Below are positions 56,046 to 64,000 of a stretch of 64,000 nt of DNA, piece by piece. Location of the stretch: the NCBI RefSeq assembly GCF_038096165.1, contig NZ_CP151076.1:4895501-4959500 (forward strand), given 5' to 3'. Numbering within the stretch: position 1 is the first letter of the stretch; each line of letters begins with the position of its first letter. Below the pieces are notes generated by a model. The model was not told the DNA's origin, made no database searches, and saw only the letters and a list, made by a program, of their open reading frames with translations. The position numbers and the translations under genes were made by a program. The DNA comes from Pseudomonas sp. G.S.17 (GTDB lineage: Bacteria; Pseudomonadota; Gammaproteobacteria; Pseudomonadales; Pseudomonadaceae).

Positions 56046-56811
56046 GCAATAAATTGGACTGATCAAGAGGCGAACGGAGGGATTCCGAATGCGCGGCAGT
56101 GGAAGTGTCGTCAGATGCAAAAAACCGGCGTTTGGTTGGGTATGAGTTTGCCTGCAGGTTCATCTAACGCTGATGTTCGTGAATATAGTCCTTGAGGGCT
56201 TGATTCGCCCGGGTTTGCCAACCACTGCCGCCGGCTTTGAAATAATCCACGACATCAGGCGACAAACGCAGTGTCACACGCTCTGTGATGGGCGCTTTCT
56301 GCGGGCCTCGCTCACCTTGTCGGCGCACAGTGGCCGTATCCCAAAAATCGTCTACCGCCGCTGGATCATTAGGGTCGTATGAGACTCGGCATCATGCGCA
56401 ACCGGCGTTTCTGCGTGGGCTTCGCGTTTGATGCGATCCCAGTCAGTCTTGCTGGAAGTCGGCATAGCGTTTCCTCAGCATTTGCTCCCATGAAAGCACC
56501 GCCATAGGGCCGATCAAATATATAGAGAAACAACAAGATCCCCGCTCTCGTCAACAACCGCTGCAGATATTATCGACCGGCAGACGCCATAGTGCCGAGA
56601 TTGAGTGCAGCACATTTCCCCCATGTTTATTTATTACGCTTATCTTCGCAGCTAATAAAAATACATTTGTGGAAGGACTGCTGTTTCAATCAGATACAAA
56701 TAGTTGTTTGCCGAAATTAAGTACCGGAAACTAAAATTGTTTTTTTCCGACAGAAAACCACTGCCAGCCCCTGAACATAAACATATATCTATATCAAAGA
56801 TGGATAGAAGT
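56046..56811. other. Variable, largely non-coding AT-rich stretch
   Basis: About 770 bases with no intact gene. The left part carries a frameshifted BrnA-like antitoxin (56164-56465). From about 56510 the sequence is AT-rich and has no coding signature; it should include the promoter of the dioxygenase-family gene. No BrnT toxin gene is seen here. Confidence 0.55.
56164..56465 (-). pseudogene. BrnA-like antitoxin, frameshifted
   Basis: On the minus strand an ATG at 56465 opens MPTSSKTDWDRIKREAHAET, typical of BrnA-type ribbon-helix-helix antitoxins, but this frame stops about 37 codons later. The next frame resumes with DPNDPAAVDDFWDTATV and ends in a well-formed C-terminus (ERVTLRLSPDVVDYF, then GWQTRANQALKDYI). 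Start to final stop is 302 bases, not a multiple of three, so one indel near 56380 breaks the gene. No partner toxin is found upstream. A sequencing error is the main alternative. Confidence 0.65.
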
Positions 56812-57771
56812 ATGAAATTTGAGAACCCCGTCAAAAATTTAGCCCCTTGGTTCATGAACTCCGCTGAGTCAGCTCGCAGGCTGCCCACCCTACCCAGTCC
56901 TATACGAACGCATGTTGAAGATCTGATACGTGACGGATTCACTGTCATCAAGGGATCGTTGCATAAGGACAAATGTGTCTCGGTGATCGAAAACTTTAAG
57001 AAATTTGCCAATCTTAATAATGACAAATTTGCAAAATTCCTTGATCGCGACGGACACTACCCGCGTATCGTTAACCTGCACGCTGCCTTTCCTGAATTGA
57101 TCGACCTGTTTGATATGAATAAAACGGCCTATGACGTTCAAGAAGCAATGTTCGGTGCACCACCCAGCCTTTATACATCGCTTTTTTATGAACGCGGTTC
57201 AGCTCAGCCTATCCATCGCGACACGCCATACTTCACCACGAAACCTGAGATGTTTTACTTGGGCGTATGGGTTGCACTTGAAGATGCGAACGAGCAAAAC
57301 GGCGCTTTGGATGTAATGCGCGGGGGGCACAATATCCCTGAGCCCGACCGTGCCGCGATTGCATTGAAATACTTCGACAGCCTCGACGCAGTTCCGAGTA
57401 GTTCTGCTGCGCTATGGGATGGCTTTCAAAGTGAGGTTCAGCGCCTTTGCGCTGAAGCTTGCGTGCAAAAGGAACAATTATCTGTGCAAGCAGGCGACAC
57501 TATCATCTGGCATCCACAGCTCCCGCATGGCGGGGGAGCGATACAGGACATCACGAAAAGCAGATTCAGTTTTGTGATGCACACAACGCCGGCTGGAACT
57601 CCCGTTTATCATCATGACAAATTTTTCAATCCAGAGGCTCCGGCTGAATTAGACTCTGATCGCTCTTACGGAAGGCACCGTGATAGTTACTTTGTGAAAC
57701 ACACGGAAGTAGATTTCGCTCACGTCGAATTAATTCCAGTAAGAGACTTCAAAACGACAGCCAATCGCTAA
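56812..57771 (+). CDS. Phytanoyl-CoA dioxygenase (PhyH) family protein
   Basis: Iron(II)/2-oxoglutarate oxygenase family member of 319 residues. The first metal ligands are His135 and Asp137 (QPIHRDTPYF), the distal His is in LPHGGGAIQ and the 2-oxoglutarate Arg follows in KSRFSFVMH, so the enzyme looks active. The substrate is unknown; relatives hydroxylate ectoine, fatty acyl chains or natural products. Start uncertain (ATG 56812, or 56800). Base composition is clearly more AT-rich than the flanking core genes, and it stands alone in a variable patch, suggesting transfer. Confidence 0.82.
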   Translation: MKFENPVKNLAPWFMNSAESARRLPTLPSPIRTHVEDLIRDGFTVIKGSLHKDKCVSVIENFKKFANLNNDKFAKFLDRDGHYPRIVNLHAAFPELIDLFDMNKTAYDVQEAMFGAPPSLYTSLFYERGSAQPIHRDTPYFTTKPEMFYLGVWVALEDANEQNGALDVMRGGHNIPEPDRAAIALKYFDSLDAVPSSSAALWDGFQSEVQRLCAEACVQKEQLSVQAGDTIIWHPQLPHGGGAIQDITKSRFSFVMHTTPAGTPVYHHDKFFNPEAPAELDSDRSYGRHRDSYFVKHTEVDFAHVELIPVRDFKTTANR

Positions 57772-58755: not shown

Positions 58756-59060
58756 GGCGGCCTCCCGGACCGCGATAGGGCACAAACCAGCGACGCTGGT
58801 CGGCGTTCGCCAATAGCTGGCGGACAGAAAATAAGACACGAAAACCCCCTTCAAGTGCCCCGTGGGGCGAACTATATTTGTGCCGCCACGCCCCAAGCCG
58901 GTGCATCCGCGCACCATGATCAGCCGATACAGGCCAGCACGAAACCTCCCTCCACGATGTAGCCCCTCTGTATCGGGCGTTGTGGCAAGTTGGCACAACT
59001 CTCGCTTTAACAAACCCGTGCAGGAGTCAAAACAGGTTCGCGGCACCACAATTTGCAATA
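58756..59060. other. Intergenic stretch before the guanidine riboswitch
   Basis: 305 bases holding the divergent promoters of the lipoprotein and of the guanidine operon. I could not assign their elements and see no other gene or repeat. Confidence 0.5.
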
Positions 59061-59165
59061 GCCGACTAGGGTTCCGGCTCGTCAATAAATGACGAGTGGC
59101 TGGTCCGAGAGTTGGCGACCTCCAGTAGAGGTTACACGGCGGGATAAAAGCCCGGGAGACAGGAC
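59061..59165 (+). promoter_or_regulatory. Guanidine-I riboswitch (ykkC class)
   Basis: The leader contains the conserved ykkC blocks in order: ACTAGGGTTCCGG (59065), CTGGTCCGAGAG (59100-59111), and ACACGGCGGGATAAAAGCCC with GGGAG (59134-59157). Helices between them (GGCTCGTCA/TGACGAGTGGC and others) pair as expected. Free guanidine binding turns on downstream genes in this class. The following hairpin GACACC-AGT-GGTGTC (59163-59177) and CCCCTTTT stretch probably form the expression platform. Confidence 0.95.
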
Positions 59166-59220
59166 ACCAGTGGTGTCGCGTTGCTCCTGGCCGCCCCTTT
59201 TCGCTACTGGAGGTTGTTAT

Positions 59221-60291
59221 ATGCAAAAATCCCGTCTGTTCGGCCTGCTCGCTGCAGGTCTCGTCGCTGCATTGAGCCTTTCTTCGGCGCAAGCCGCCGT
59301 CAAAAAAGAATTCAACGTGTGCTGGACCATTTATGCCGGCTGGATGCCCTGGGAATACGCAGGAACCCAAGGCATTGTCGACAAGTGGGCGAAAAAATAC
59401 GGCATCAAGATCGATGTCACCCAGCTCAACGATTACGTCGAATCCATCAACCAATACACCGCTGGCCAGTTCGATGGCTGCACCATGACCAACATGGATG
59501 CGCTGACCATCCCGGCGGCGGGCGGCGTCGACAGCACCGCGTTGATCGTCAGCGACTTCTCCAACGGCAACGACGGCATCGTCATCAAAGGTGCGGGCAA
59601 GAAAGTCGCCGACCTCAAGGGCATGAACGTCAATCTGGTGGAGCTCTCTGTCTCCCACTATCTGCTGGCCCGCGCGCTGGATACGGCTGACCTGTCCGAG
59701 AAAGACCTGAAAGTGGTCAATACGTCCGATGCCGACATCTCCGCGGCCTTCAACACCGACGACGTTCAGGCGGTGACCACCTGGAACCCGATGCTGGCAG
59801 ATATCAAGGCCAAGCCCGGCGTTACCCAGGTGTTCGACTCCAGCAAGATCCCCGGCGAAATCATGGACATGATGGTGGTCAACACCCAGACCCTGAAAGA
59901 CAACCCGGCGCTGGGCAAAGCGTTGACCGGTGCCTGGTTTGAAGTGGTTGCGCTGATGAACGCCAAGTCCGCCGCAAGCAAGGTCGCGCTGGAGCACATG
60001 GCCAAGGCCTCGGGCACGGATCTGGCCGGTTTCCAGGCGCAACTGGACACCACCAAGCTGTTCGCCACGCCTAAAGAAGCCCTGGAATTCGCTAACAGCA
60101 AACAGCTGCCGGACACCATGCGCAAGGTTGCCAACTTCTCCTTCGAGCATGGCTTGCTGGGTGAAGGTGCCAAGGATTCCAGCGCCGTAGGCATGTCGTT
60201 CGCCAACGGCGTGATGTCTGGCGACAAGACCAATCTCAAGCTGCATTTCGACCCGAGCTACGTGCAAATGGCCGCCGACGGCACGTTGTAA
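59221..60291 (+). CDS. Guanidine ABC transporter substrate-binding protein
   Basis: Periplasmic receptor of 356 residues, often labelled putative urea ABC transporter substrate-binding protein. Signal peptide to about residue 26 (SLSSAQAA), then a TauA/NMT1-like fold (FNVCWTIYAGWMPWEYAG, FDGCTMTNMDALTIPAAGG, VNLVELSVSHYLLARALD, AVTTWNPMLADI). First gene after the guanidine-I riboswitch, which points to guanidine or a close derivative as ligand. GGAGG lies before ATG 59221. Confidence 0.9.
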   Translation: MQKSRLFGLLAAGLVAALSLSSAQAAVKKEFNVCWTIYAGWMPWEYAGTQGIVDKWAKKYGIKIDVTQLNDYVESINQYTAGQFDGCTMTNMDALTIPAAGGVDSTALIVSDFSNGNDGIVIKGAGKKVADLKGMNVNLVELSVSHYLLARALDTADLSEKDLKVVNTSDADISAAFNTDDVQAVTTWNPMLADIKAKPGVTQVFDSSKIPGEIMDMMVVNTQTLKDNPALGKALTGAWFEVVALMNAKSAASKVALEHMAKASGTDLAGFQAQLDTTKLFATPKEALEFANSKQLPDTMRKVANFSFEHGLLGEGAKDSSAVGMSFANGVMSGDKTNLKLHFDPSYVQMAADGTL

Positions 60292-60318
60292 TCCGCGTTT
60301 CGCACAAAGGTCATTGCC

Positions 60319-61134
60319 ATGCGCTTGATAAATCGCCGCCCGGATCGCGCCAGCCGCCTGATTCTGGTGATCCTGCCGTTTGCCCTGCTGCTGTTCGCCT
60401 ATTTCACCGGCTCGGCGACCCGGTTGACGGAAAATCCCAACGACAAGCTGCTGCCCAGCGCCGTGCAGATGGCTGATGCAGTCAATCGTATGGCGTTCAA
60501 AGCCGACAGCCGCACTGGCGAATATCTGCTCTGGCAGGACACCGGTTCCAGCCTGAAACGGCTGGCGATTGGCCTGGGCATCAGTGCGTTGCTGGGTTTA
60601 TGCCTGGGGATTGCCTCGGGAATCCTGCCGTTGTTCGGCGCGCCGTTGTCGCCCTTGTTGACGGTGCTGTCAATGGTGCCGCCGCTGGCAATCCTGCCGA
60701 TTCTGTTCATCGTCTTCGGTTTGGGCGAGCTGTCGAAAGTCATGCTCATCGTGATCGGCATCACGCCGATCCTGGCCCGTGATCTGGAGCAGCGCGCCCG
60801 GGAAATTCCGGTAGAGCTGCTGATCAAGGCGCAGACCTTGGGCGCTTCAACCTGGACGCTGATCCTGCGGGTGATCCTGCCGCAATTGCTGCCACGTTTG
60901 CTGATTGCCTTGCGACTGGTGCTGGGTTCGGCGTGGTTGTTCCTGATCGCTGCCGAGGCCATTGCTTCGACCGATGGCCTCGGTTACCGGATTTTTCTGG
61001 TGCGGCGCTATCTGGCAATGGACGTGATTCTGCCCTATGTGGTCTGGATCACGTTGCTGGCGTGGCTGATGGATTGGGGCCTCAAGGCGCTGACCCGCAA
61101 AGCTTTCCCTTGGTATGAGGGGGTGCGAGGATGA
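60319..61134 (+). CDS. Guanidine ABC transporter permease
   Basis: TauC-like inner-membrane permease of 271 residues with about six helices and the EAA-type loop (QTLGASTWTLILRVILPQLLPRLLIALRL within the segment near residues 175-200). Works with the preceding binding protein and the overlapping ATPase (four-base overlap at 61131). Substrate inferred from the riboswitch. Confidence 0.9.
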   Translation: MRLINRRPDRASRLILVILPFALLLFAYFTGSATRLTENPNDKLLPSAVQMADAVNRMAFKADSRTGEYLLWQDTGSSLKRLAIGLGISALLGLCLGIASGILPLFGAPLSPLLTVLSMVPPLAILPILFIVFGLGELSKVMLIVIGITPILARDLEQRAREIPVELLIKAQTLGASTWTLILRVILPQLLPRLLIALRLVLGSAWLFLIAAEAIASTDGLGYRIFLVRRYLAMDVILPYVVWITLLAWLMDWGLKALTRKAFPWYEGVRG

Positions 61135-61895
61135 GTTTTATTTCCGTGCAAAACGTCTGGCAACAATATGACGATCAAGTGGTGCTCGACGGCCTGAACC
61201 TGAGCGTCGCCGAGGGTGAATTCTGCACGCTGGTCGGTGCCTCGGGTTGCGGCAAATCCACCTTCCTGCGCTTGTTGCTGGGTCAGGAAGTGCCGAGCAA
61301 GGGCAAGATTCTGCTCGACGGCAAGGCCCTGGCCAGCGAGCCGGATGCCAGCCGTGGCGTGGTGTTTCAGCGCTATTCGGTGTTCCCGCACCTGTCAGTG
61401 CTGGACAACGTTGCCTTGGGCCTGGAACTGCCGCGCTCGGCGCTGCTCGGGCGATTGTTCGGCAATGCCAAACGCGAAGCGCGCGAACAGGCGGCGGTAT
61501 TGCTGAAGAAAGTCGGCCTGGGTCATTCGCTGGATAAATACCCGACGCAGCTGTCCGGCGGCATGCAACAGCGGCTGGCGATTGCCCAGGCGCTGATCAT
61601 GAAACCTCGGGTGTTGCTGCTCGACGAACCCTTCGGCGCCCTGGATCCGGGCATCCGCAAAGACATGCACGCCTTGCTGCTGGAACTGTGGCGCGAGACG
61701 CAGCTGACGGTGTTCATGGTTACCCATGACTTGTCCGAAGGTTTCAACCTCGGCACCCGCTTGCTGGTCTTCGACAAAGTCCGCATCGACCCCCACGCCC
61801 CCGGCGCTTATGGCGCGCGTATCACTTATGACATTCCCCTGAACAGCGACCGCCGCGCAGCACGCGCCGCGCTTGACTCGCTGCAACAGGCTTAG
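61131..61895 (+). CDS. Guanidine ABC transporter ATP-binding protein
   Basis: A 254-residue ABC ATPase with Walker A GASGCGKST (36-44), Q loop VVFQRYSVFPHLSVLDN, signature LSGGMQQRLAIAQAL and Walker B VLLLDEPFGALD. It powers import with the upstream permease. Overlaps the permease by four bases; the DUF1989 gene follows after 12 bases. Confidence 0.93.
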   Translation: MSFISVQNVWQQYDDQVVLDGLNLSVAEGEFCTLVGASGCGKSTFLRLLLGQEVPSKGKILLDGKALASEPDASRGVVFQRYSVFPHLSVLDNVALGLELPRSALLGRLFGNAKREAREQAAVLLKKVGLGHSLDKYPTQLSGGMQQRLAIAQALIMKPRVLLLDEPFGALDPGIRKDMHALLLELWRETQLTVFMVTHDLSEGFNLGTRLLVFDKVRIDPHAPGAYGARITYDIPLNSDRRAARAALDSLQQA

Positions 61896-61907
61896 AGGAT
61901 TCTGCTC

Positions 61908-62633
61908 ATGACACCATCCAACACGCTATTCCCCGTCTTCGCCGAAGAGCTGCTGCCCGGCGGCGGCCACCGTTCGTTCGTACTCAAACGCGGCGAACTG
62001 CTGCGCCTGACTGATCTCAACGGCAACGCCAACGTCAGCCTGACGCTGCTCAACGCCCACGAAAAAACCGAGCGTTTGAACCTGCCGGACAGCCTCAAAT
62101 GCCAGCACACCGCCAAACTCACCAGCGGCCATTGCCTGTATTCGGACATGGGCCGTGTTCTGGCAGCAATTACCGCTGACACCTGCGGCTGGAGCGACAG
62201 CCTCGGCGGCGTGCTCTGCGCTGAAGAAGTCGCCGAGAAATACGGCCAGGGCCGCTATCAGGAATTGCGCAACGGCTTCTTTCGCAACGGCACCGACAAC
62301 CTGCTGGTGGAACTGGGCAAATGGGGCCTGGGCCTGTCGGACCTGCTGATGACCTTGAACCTGTTCAGCCGCGTCAACGTTGACGACGGGGGCCGCCTGC
62401 ATTTTGTGCCGGGCAACTCGCAAGCCGGGGATTACATCGAGCTGTACGCGCCGATGGATACCCTGGTCGTCCTCACCGCGCTGCAACATCCCATGGACCC
62501 GAATCCTGAATACGCCCCGCAGCCGCTGCAACTGAGCTGGATGAAAGCCGACGCCAGCGTCGCTGAGCATTGCCGCACGTCCCGCCCGGAAAACCAGCGC
62601 GGCTTTATCAATACCGATCGCCTGTTCGCCTGA
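61908..62633 (+). CDS. Urea-carboxylase-associated protein 1 (DUF1989), probable carboxyguanidine deiminase subunit
   Basis: A 241-residue DUF1989 protein ([40 protein letters not shown], with a Cys pair around LGGVLC). In guanidine-degrading bacteria this protein and the next form a heteromeric enzyme (CgdAB) that deiminates carboxyguanidine to allophanate. Databases call it urea amidolyase-associated. Position behind a guanidine riboswitch supports the deiminase reading. Confidence 0.88.
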
Positions 62634-62644
62634 GGAGCACGTCC

Positions 62645-63265
62645 ATGAATCCGACTTCCGCTACTGCTGCATCCACCACCTTCATTGCGGCCGGCGAACC
62701 GTCGCTGACGGAACTCAAGGCCGGGCAAACCCTGCGCATCCTCGATCTGGAAGGCAATCAGGCGGTCGACACGCTGTTCTTCAGCCTCGCCAACCCCCGT
62801 GAGCGTTACGACGTGCAGCGCACCTTGCGCCGCCAAGGCAGCGTTTACCTGACCACCGGCAGCGTGCTGTATTCCAACCTGGGTAAACCGATGCTGACCA
62901 TCGTCGCTGACACCTGCGGACGCCATGACACCCTCGGCGGTGCCTGCGCCCAAGAGAGCAACACCGTGCGTTACGCCCTGGAAAAGCGCCACATGCACAG
63001 CTGCCGCGACAACTATCTGCGCGCTTGCGTGCATGACGGGCGCCTGGGCAAAGGCGACATCGGGCCGAACATCAACTTTTTCATGAACGTGCCGGTTACC
63101 GCTGACGGCGGACTGACCTTCGAGGACGGCATTTCCGCGCCGGGCAAATACGTGGAACTGCGCGCCGAAATGGACGTGATCGTGCTGATTTCCAACTGTC
63201 CGCAGTTGAATAACCCGTGCAATGGCTACAACCCGACGCCGGCTGAATTGCACGTCTGGAATTAA
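62645..63265 (+). CDS. Urea-carboxylase-associated protein 2 (DUF1989), probable carboxyguanidine deiminase subunit
   Basis: A 206-residue paralogue of the preceding gene: [45 protein letters not shown] and [13 protein letters not shown]. Cys and His residues in [11 protein letters not shown] could bind a metal or take part in deimination. ATG 62645 follows a GGAG and lies 11 bases after the previous stop. The repeat array and the carboxylase gene follow. Confidence 0.88.
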
Positions 63266-63268
63266 GCC

Positions 63269-63440
63269 CTCGCGGCTGAAGCCGCTCCTACGGACGGTGT
63301 TTCGTGGGAACGGCTTCGGCGGCTCCTGCGGGCGGTGTTTCGGGGGACGGCTTCGGCGGCTCCTGCGGACGGTGTTTCGTGGGAACGGCTTCGGCGGTTT
63401 CCTACGGACGGCGTTTCGTAGGAGCGGCTTCAGCCGCGAG
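63269..63440. repeat. Tandem REP-like array bounded by a perfect inverted repeat
   Basis: Four tandem units of 37-39 bases, each with a GGACGGTGTTTCGTGGGA-like spacer and a CGGCTTCGGCGG-like core. The two ends, 63269-63292 and 63417-63440, are exact 24-base complements (CTCGCGGCTGAAGCCGCTCC / GGAGCGGCTTCAGCCGCGAG cores). It sits inside the guanidine operon between the second DUF1989 gene and the carboxylase. Confidence 0.85.
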
Positions 63441-63550
63441 CGGACTAGCAACCTGACCACGACGGACGACCCTCGTGCAGACACATCAATAGCGGGACGG
63501 CCCGCTTCCCAAGTTTGAGGTCGACACCATCGACTTCCGGGGTTCAAGCC

Positions 63551-64000
63551 ATGTTTGACACACTGCTGATCGCCAACCGTGGCGCCATTGCCTGCCGCAT
63601 CCTGCGCACCTTGCGTGCCCTGCACGTCAAAGGCGTTGCCGTGTACTCCGAAGCCGATGCCGCCAGCCTGCATTTGCTGCAAGCCGACGAAGCCCACAGC
63701 CTGGGTGAAGGCGGCGCGGCCGGGACTTATCTGGCTGTGGATAAAATCCTCGCCATCGCCAAAGCCAGCGGCGCGCAAGCGATTCATCCCGGCTACGGCT
63801 TTCTTTCCGAAAACGCTGCCTTCGCGCAAACCTGCGAAGACGCGGGCATTGCCTTTGTCGGCCCGACGCCAGAGCAACTGCGGGTATTCGGCCTCAAGCA
63901 CACCGCCCGCGCCTTAGCCAAACAGCACGGCGTGCCGATGCTCGAAGGCACCGAATTGCTCGACAGCCTCGACACCGCGCTGGGCGCCGCAGAAATCATT
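63551..64000 (+). CDS. Biotin-dependent guanidine/urea carboxylase, N-terminal part
   Basis: The first 150 residues of a biotin carboxylase domain (MFDTLLIANRGAIACRILRT, VAVYSEADAASLHLLQADEA, AIHPGYGFLSENAAFA, IAFVGPTPEQL); the gene runs off the right end. By position behind DUF1989 genes and a guanidine-I riboswitch it should be guanidine carboxylase, making carboxyguanidine from guanidine, bicarbonate and ATP; classical annotation is urea carboxylase. The residues that separate the two are in the missing C-terminal half. Confidence 0.88.
   Translation, partial: MFDTLLIANRGAIACRILRTLRALHVKGVAVYSEADAASLHLLQADEAHSLGEGGAAGTYLAVDKILAIAKASGAQAIHPGYGFLSENAAFAQTCEDAGIAFVGPTPEQLRVFGLKHTARALAKQHGVPMLEGTELLDSLDTALGAAEII

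Follow-up and report, generated by a model that had tools for sequence, protein, structure and literature searches.

A predicted guanidine degradation operon with two riboswitches and a repeat-encoded carboxylase linker in Pseudomonas sp. G.S.17

The window analyzed here is a stretch of 64,000 nucleotides from Pseudomonas sp. G.S.17 (contig NZ_CP151076.1, G000:C1:4895501-4959500; genome size 6.27 Mb), at the right edge of which lies an operon that is predicted to import and degrade guanidine. Positions are counted from the first base of the window, and the operon was followed past the edge in an extended stretch (L003) that covers 58001-75000 in the same count; its genes, RNA elements and repeat array lie on the forward strand. 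Behind a riboswitch, the first gene encodes a periplasmic substrate-binding protein (SBP), predicted to bind guanidine (59221..60291; TIGR03427, 576 bits). It is followed by a TauC/SsuC-like permease of an ATP-binding cassette (ABC) transporter (60319..61134; PF00528, with the TauC model itself scoring under its cut-off) and by the transporter ATPase (61131..61895; PF00005), which overlaps the permease stop. Two DUF1989 proteins come next, UAAP1 (61908..62633; TIGR03425, 328 bits against a cut-off of 206) and UAAP2 (62645..63265; TIGR03424, 327 bits against 285), with PF09347 scores of 189.6 and 228.5 bits; as a DUF1989 pair adjoining a carboxylase they are predicted to be the two subunits of a carboxyguanidine deiminase. 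The guanidine carboxylase gene gca (1221 amino acids; TIGR02712, 1873 bits) spans 63551..67216 in the extended count (L003:5551-9216; G000:C1:4959051-4962716), of which only the 5' start (63551..64000) falls inside the window. At 36 bases from the gca stop, a gene for an allophanate hydrolase of 607 amino acids begins (67253-69076 in the extended count, L003:9253-11076; TIGR02713, 766 bits against a cut-off of 511), with both the amidase and the AH_C domain present (PF01425, PF21986). An earlier note, made from the letters of the window, had named the importer, the DUF1989 pair as carboxyguanidine deiminase and the carboxylase, and had placed an allophanate hydrolase just past the right edge; the profile models agree on the gene families, and the gene set predicted for guanidine degradation is complete beyond the edge. 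Among the best 80 of 559 loci, the nearest relatives of the carboxylase are those of Pseudomonas sp. CFII64 and P. syringae GR12-2 (94-95% identity) and of P. caspiana (91%), which is placed in the P. syringae group; judged by these relatives, the host is a Pseudomonas in or near that group.

By their curated names, these genes would be assigned to urea, as the earlier note had warned. TIGR03427 is labelled 'putative urea ABC transporter substrate-binding protein', TIGR03425 and TIGR03424 'urea amidolyase associated protein', and TIGR02712 'urea carboxylase'. The note had further expected a guanidine-specific residue in the part of the carboxylase beyond the edge. In the available passages of PMC11410670, guanidine carboxylases are described as carrying Asp at the positions of residues 1330 and 1584 of the Kluyveromyces lactis urea amidolyase. 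The carboxylase of that enzyme (PDB 3VA7, 5I8I) shares the domain order of Gca and matches it with 1077 bits over 1217 residues, with the linker stretch discussed below poorly aligned; its Asn1330, however, aligns with Asp705 of Gca (PDB 5I8I, the chain index being taken as residue number). The second position corresponds to Asp974, as counted off in the terminal part of this alignment. Gca therefore combines a TIGR02712-type match with the double Asp that marks a guanidine carboxylase.

The riboswitch at the head of the operon, which the earlier note had recognized, is a Guanidine-I (ykkC class I) aptamer at 59055..59160. Its match to Rfam RF00442 covers the full model (1-107) and reaches 92.8 bits, where the gathering score is 63; for the search of the whole window, E is 1.7e-15. 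No second RF00442 match was reported in the genome, where 150 of 206 first-look candidates were scored. Downstream, a predicted terminator (59138..59201) consists of a hairpin (59138-59195) that reuses bases of the aptamer helix P3, followed by CCCCTTTT. The ViennaRNA fold of 59135-59205 has a free energy of -28.9 kcal/mol, and the hairpin and P3 are mutually exclusive. As the two cannot coexist, the arrangement fits the transcriptional ON switch that excerpts of PMC12186494 describe for the class, and we infer a terminator-based ON switch as the expression platform.

A second guanidine riboswitch, overlooked in the earlier note, lies in the spacer that separates gca from the second DUF1989 gene. 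This Guanidine-II (mini-ykkC) element at 63458..63505 matches RF01068 with 38.9 bits (gathering score 32; E 0.00032) and shows the two hairpin loops of the class, ACGA and ACGG; no further RF01068 match was reported in the genome, with 150 of 621 first-look candidates scored. For guanidine riboswitch classes III and IV, the Rfam scan covered the window. Immediately after Guanidine-II, fold and alignment indicate another hairpin (63508..63542); its 3' side falls within a GGGG run (63539-63542) that resembles a Shine-Dalgarno sequence and precedes the gca ATG by 8 bases. Several relatives have just a CCCC-loop-GGGG version of this hairpin, in which 7 bases separate the run from the ATG. The same spacer holds a REP-type (repetitive extragenic palindromic) repeat array of 3.9 copies of 37 bases (63284..63431; Tandem Repeats Finder), which had equally gone unnoticed. 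The spacer differs among sister loci: from the second DUF1989 stop to the gca ATG it measures 285 bases here, 242 in L004 and 209 in L005.

The link between substrate residue and riboswitch was followed across relatives in two sets of loci. One set holds the 80 named loci, which rank best among 559 and are hence biased toward close relatives. A further 60 were taken from genomes, 40 of them genus loci chosen from 88 genomes, mainly for lower-identity and split matches; four of the 60 yielded no open reading frame (ORF; L149, L168, L170, L171) and one was a one-residue artefact (L162), and these were dropped. The 55 loci used comprise 39 Pseudomonas loci of the guanidine type, 10 of an Asn type and six from other genera. 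L144 duplicates L009 and is excluded from the riboswitch counts and from the tree below, but included in the linker count of 120. Asp occupies both 705 and 974 in 81 of 81 aligned relatives, as it does in the 39 guanidine-type genes taken from genomes. Guanidine-I is present in all 114 distinct Pseudomonas guanidine-type loci with at least 4.3 kb of upstream DNA, and Guanidine-II in all 119 distinct loci (118 by pattern, L045 by Rfam). In a draw of 159 Pseudomonas genomes, 91 had a carboxylase match at E <= 1e-200; 88 of these have one with 78% identity or more, and 11 have one at 53-56%. Ten of the latter 11 yielded an ORF, and all ten encode Asn at 705. Neither Guanidine-I nor Guanidine-II was found by pattern upstream of any of these ten paralogues, and Rfam reported no guanidine riboswitch at the three such loci scanned (L152, L155, L160). 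Among the Pseudomonas loci read, Asp with riboswitches versus Asn without them thus offers a simple rule for renaming carboxylases.

Some loci vary in layout. In L116 and, by the position of Guanidine-I, also in L079, L117, L119 and L128, the riboswitch lies about 2.9-3.3 kb before gca versus the usual 4.4 kb or so; L116 is the sole short version whose ORFs were read, and it holds no permease or ATPase gene between the SBP gene and the DUF1989 pair. In L112, a second Guanidine-I (L112:9281-10514; RF00442, 81.5 bits) precedes a second SBP-like gene upstream of the operon's own Guanidine-I. Two copies are likewise found by pattern in L122, L123, L126, L127, L129 and L132.

From these parts, it is highly probable that the operon imports free guanidine and degrades it to ammonia and CO2 under the control of both riboswitches. 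Guanidine bound to the Guanidine-I RNA would block the terminator and allow transcription of the importer and deiminase genes, upon which the ABC importer would bring guanidine into the cell. Gca would then use ATP and bicarbonate to convert guanidine to carboxyguanidine, the DUF1989 pair would strip ammonia from this product to give allophanate, and allophanate hydrolase would free the remaining two nitrogens. The Guanidine-II RNA just 5' of gca would place the carboxylase under separate translational control. The identities of the parts are supported by their sequences; the order of reactions, the switch mechanisms and guanidine import are drawn from published homologous systems and carry over by analogy. 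The claim of a guanidine operon under riboswitch control has stood up in every sequence-level check, but was incomplete in counting one riboswitch where there are two. Two riboswitch classes for one ligand appear to guard a single pathway here.

The operon is of a known kind, described before in other bacteria, and the second riboswitch completes the picture. The double arrangement has already been published for enterobacteria and Vreelandella, as far as the consulted portions of PMC12186494 and PMC12508155 go. In the enterobacterial operons of the former, Guanidine-I stands over importer and deiminase and Guanidine-II over carboxylase and hydrolase, which is the same split as here in other hosts, a likeness at the level of arrangement. 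The operon of Vreelandella boliviensis LC1, for which the excerpted PMC12508155 reports in-line probing, growth on guanidine and induction in the proteome, shares these elements in the same order: a leading Guanidine-I, three ABC genes, cgdA/B, an internal Guanidine-II, gca and atzF. Within the genus, P. syringae pv. tomato DC3000 has an ABC importer beside its guanidine pathway genes and is named as the model organism for the pathway in the part of PMC11410670 at hand.

Several observations weigh against the proposed scheme. The SBP has three solved relatives, which bind sulfonate, taurine and nitrate. The proposed Guanidine-I terminator has a short U-run of 4 T, and a rule-based terminator scan, which considers loops of 3-8 only, did not list its hairpin. 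The hairpin behind Guanidine-II would be compatible with a hidden ribosome-binding site, but its opening by the ligand is assumed, which is a weak point. Finally, the double arrangement is not universal in other genera, from which six guanidine-type loci were read: patterns find Guanidine-I in three of the five with enough upstream DNA and Guanidine-II in two of six; an Rfam scan of two of the six adds Guanidine-II in L166.

Two other substrates were weighed. The operon might in fact serve a substituted guanidine such as methylguanidine, with guanidine as a mere intermediate. In V. boliviensis, following the passages of PMC12508155 seen, Guanidine-I bound guanidine but, over the range tested, no methylguanidine, while Guanidine-II bound both without discrimination, and mgdH and mgdL lie between gca and atzF; moreover, a PhyH-family dioxygenase (69.9 bits) is encoded upstream of our operon at 56704-57771. 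Unlike in V. boliviensis, however, the 36-base gap between gca and the allophanate hydrolase gene means that mgdH and mgdL are absent between them, and roughly 1.3 kb separate the end of the PhyH gene from the riboswitch, so we grant this possibility a slight chance. A urea carboxylase and urea transport operon, as suggested by the NCBIfam names and the overall likeness to yeast urea amidolyase, has hardly any chance and is rejected on Asp rather than Asn at the specificity position, the two guanidine riboswitches, and the separate Asn-type paralogues of the genus, riboswitch-free by pattern. Read as a guanidine operon, it is a clear case of database names misdirecting on substrate.

The carboxylase carries a further feature past the window edge. 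Residues 760-803 or so of Gca link its two carboxyltransferase halves, the CT_A_B and CT_C_D domains, and sequence reading together with genome matches shows that this linker is encoded by an in-frame doublet resembling a REPIN (REP doublet forming hairpins) at L003:7833-7915 (site L003:7819-7968). It consists of two inverted REPs, TGTGGGAGCGAGCTTGCTCGCGA and TCGCGAGCAAGCTCGCTCCCACA, separated by a spacer, and the 83-base doublet has at least 121 matches in its own genome on both strands (E <= 0.01; 40 of 334 first-look candidates scored), a layout and a copy number as expected of a REPIN. Linkers were searched at E <= 1e-3 against the DNA of 136 loci, with the carboxylase gene itself set aside. 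A match was obtained for 107 of the 120 Pseudomonas guanidine-type loci, which represent 119 distinct genes (106 of 119 without the duplicate), and the remaining 13 linkers had none. Half of the linkers (60 of 120) match another copy inside their own locus. Control windows elsewhere in the same genes matched outside DNA in 25 of 1200 cases, and no linker did so among the ten Asn-type paralogues or the six loci of other genera.

The REP family found at the linker can differ among close relatives. For instance, a search at E <= 1e-5 with the linker of P. turukhanskensis (L083) gives 113 matches in the genome it comes from and none in G000 or in the L004 genome, for which all first-look candidates were scored. 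Matches to the L004 family number 54 in the L004 genome, 57 in G000 and zero in the L083 genome, and those to the L003 family 65 in the L004 genome and 33 in the L083 genome (E <= 1e-5). These counts imply that the L003 and L004 genomes carry both of their families, yet have different ones at the linker. L146 encodes a carboxylase of 1476 amino acids in which the 305-residue linker reads as eight doublets and a fragment.

Turnover at the linker was traced on a FastTree phylogeny of 125 carboxylase rows with the linker removed, rooted on the other genera. Six Pseudomonas rows (L142, L150, L151, L133, L147 and L148) branch early under this rooting, for which long branches at the root were flagged; their linkers are short, at 23-27 residues, and free of repeats. 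The tree holds at least 26 changes of linker family. This is a soft count, since 44 of its 122 inner branches are open and families were labelled by a motif pattern; this pattern labelled 18 of 120 linkers 'none', five of which match by BLAST. A separate analysis omitted 10 of 120 proteins that did not fit its linker pattern. Orientation also varies. In a clade with support 98 that sets L042 against L022, L024, L036, L038, L039 and L058, the doublets of L022 and L038 fit that of L042 better when reverse-complemented (0.82) than as is (0.66); orientation could be compared for four of six pairs. When 30 linkers with a single full doublet were compared with L038, six fitted better forward, 10 fitted better in reverse and 14 allowed no call. 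Left repeat arms are read in one frame in 76 of 79 cases (the exceptions being L135, L139 and L141) and right arms in 74 of 86. A fixed frame was considered as proof of a single insertion and discarded, as three of the 79 left arms and 12 of the 86 right arms stand in another frame.

The simplest account of these sequences is that the linker tolerates insertion, and that repeats may invade it, flip and replace one another there, the reading frame being kept because frame-breakers are lost by selection. We lean, with reserve, toward seeing the linker as a standing landing pad: after the earliest-branching of the sampled lineages had split off, REP-type elements would have entered it and then been replaced, flipped, multiplied and swapped between families many times, with frame and enzyme intact and the linker sequence drawn from the repeat families of each genome. 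These data do not distinguish gene conversion, with other copies as donors, from repeated insertion.

That the repeats are instead an alignment or gene-calling artefact, or the ordinary composition of a flexible linker, has a very slight chance. Five of the doublet's six frames are open, so that run-through ORFs do occur. A survey of in-frame repeats in this genome covered 28 places (L084-L111, with L084 and L099 both being the gca copy), and six other repeat-spanning ORFs were scanned against Pfam: four had no family, and in two the best stretch came after the repeat (one LolA-like only there, and one with four rhodanese stretches, the best of them there). The 25 matching control windows and the 13 linkers without a match point the same way. 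Against this, conserved domains flank the gca repeat on both sides in one frame, no stop lies inside the carboxylase matches listed from the 159 Pseudomonas genomes, 107 of 120 linkers match outside DNA versus none of the ten paralogue linkers, and the L083 family counts 113 matches at home and none in two other Pseudomonas genomes. For the Gca linker, a gene-calling artefact was rejected on the flanking domains in frame, the lack of stops and the outside matches. A class-wide draw yielded one match with two internal stops (G277).

The probable recurrent insertion of repeats in the carboxylase linker is the part worth following. In P. fluorescens SBW25, 1067 occurrences of three core 16-mers were counted, only 14 of which overlap genes (excerpt of PMC3116915). 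REPs inside genes are known from several species, with flexible linkers and loops suggested as neutral sites, and intragenic REPs and Rickettsia palindromic elements are likewise palindromic repeats read in frame, according to the portions of PMC3733652 covered. Unlike the cases described there, a single orthologous linker carries repeats in most of the genus loci sampled here, and the family varies among close relatives. No earlier report of repeats at the gca linker was found in titles and abstracts, mostly the top-ranked ones, of the open-licence literature, a coverage that does not extend to the supplementary gene list of PMC3733652. If confirmed in the protein, 'extragenic' repeats would be repeatedly rewriting part of a conserved enzyme across comparable species, with the unaffected paralogue as a built-in control.

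Guanidine export was considered as a function of the operon and rejected, the sole PF00893 (small multidrug resistance) gene reported genome-wide lying outside it at C1:656284-656559. Downstream of the allophanate hydrolase gene, a large protein with ToxA_N and Stv adhesin-like domains is encoded at L003:11139-14300.

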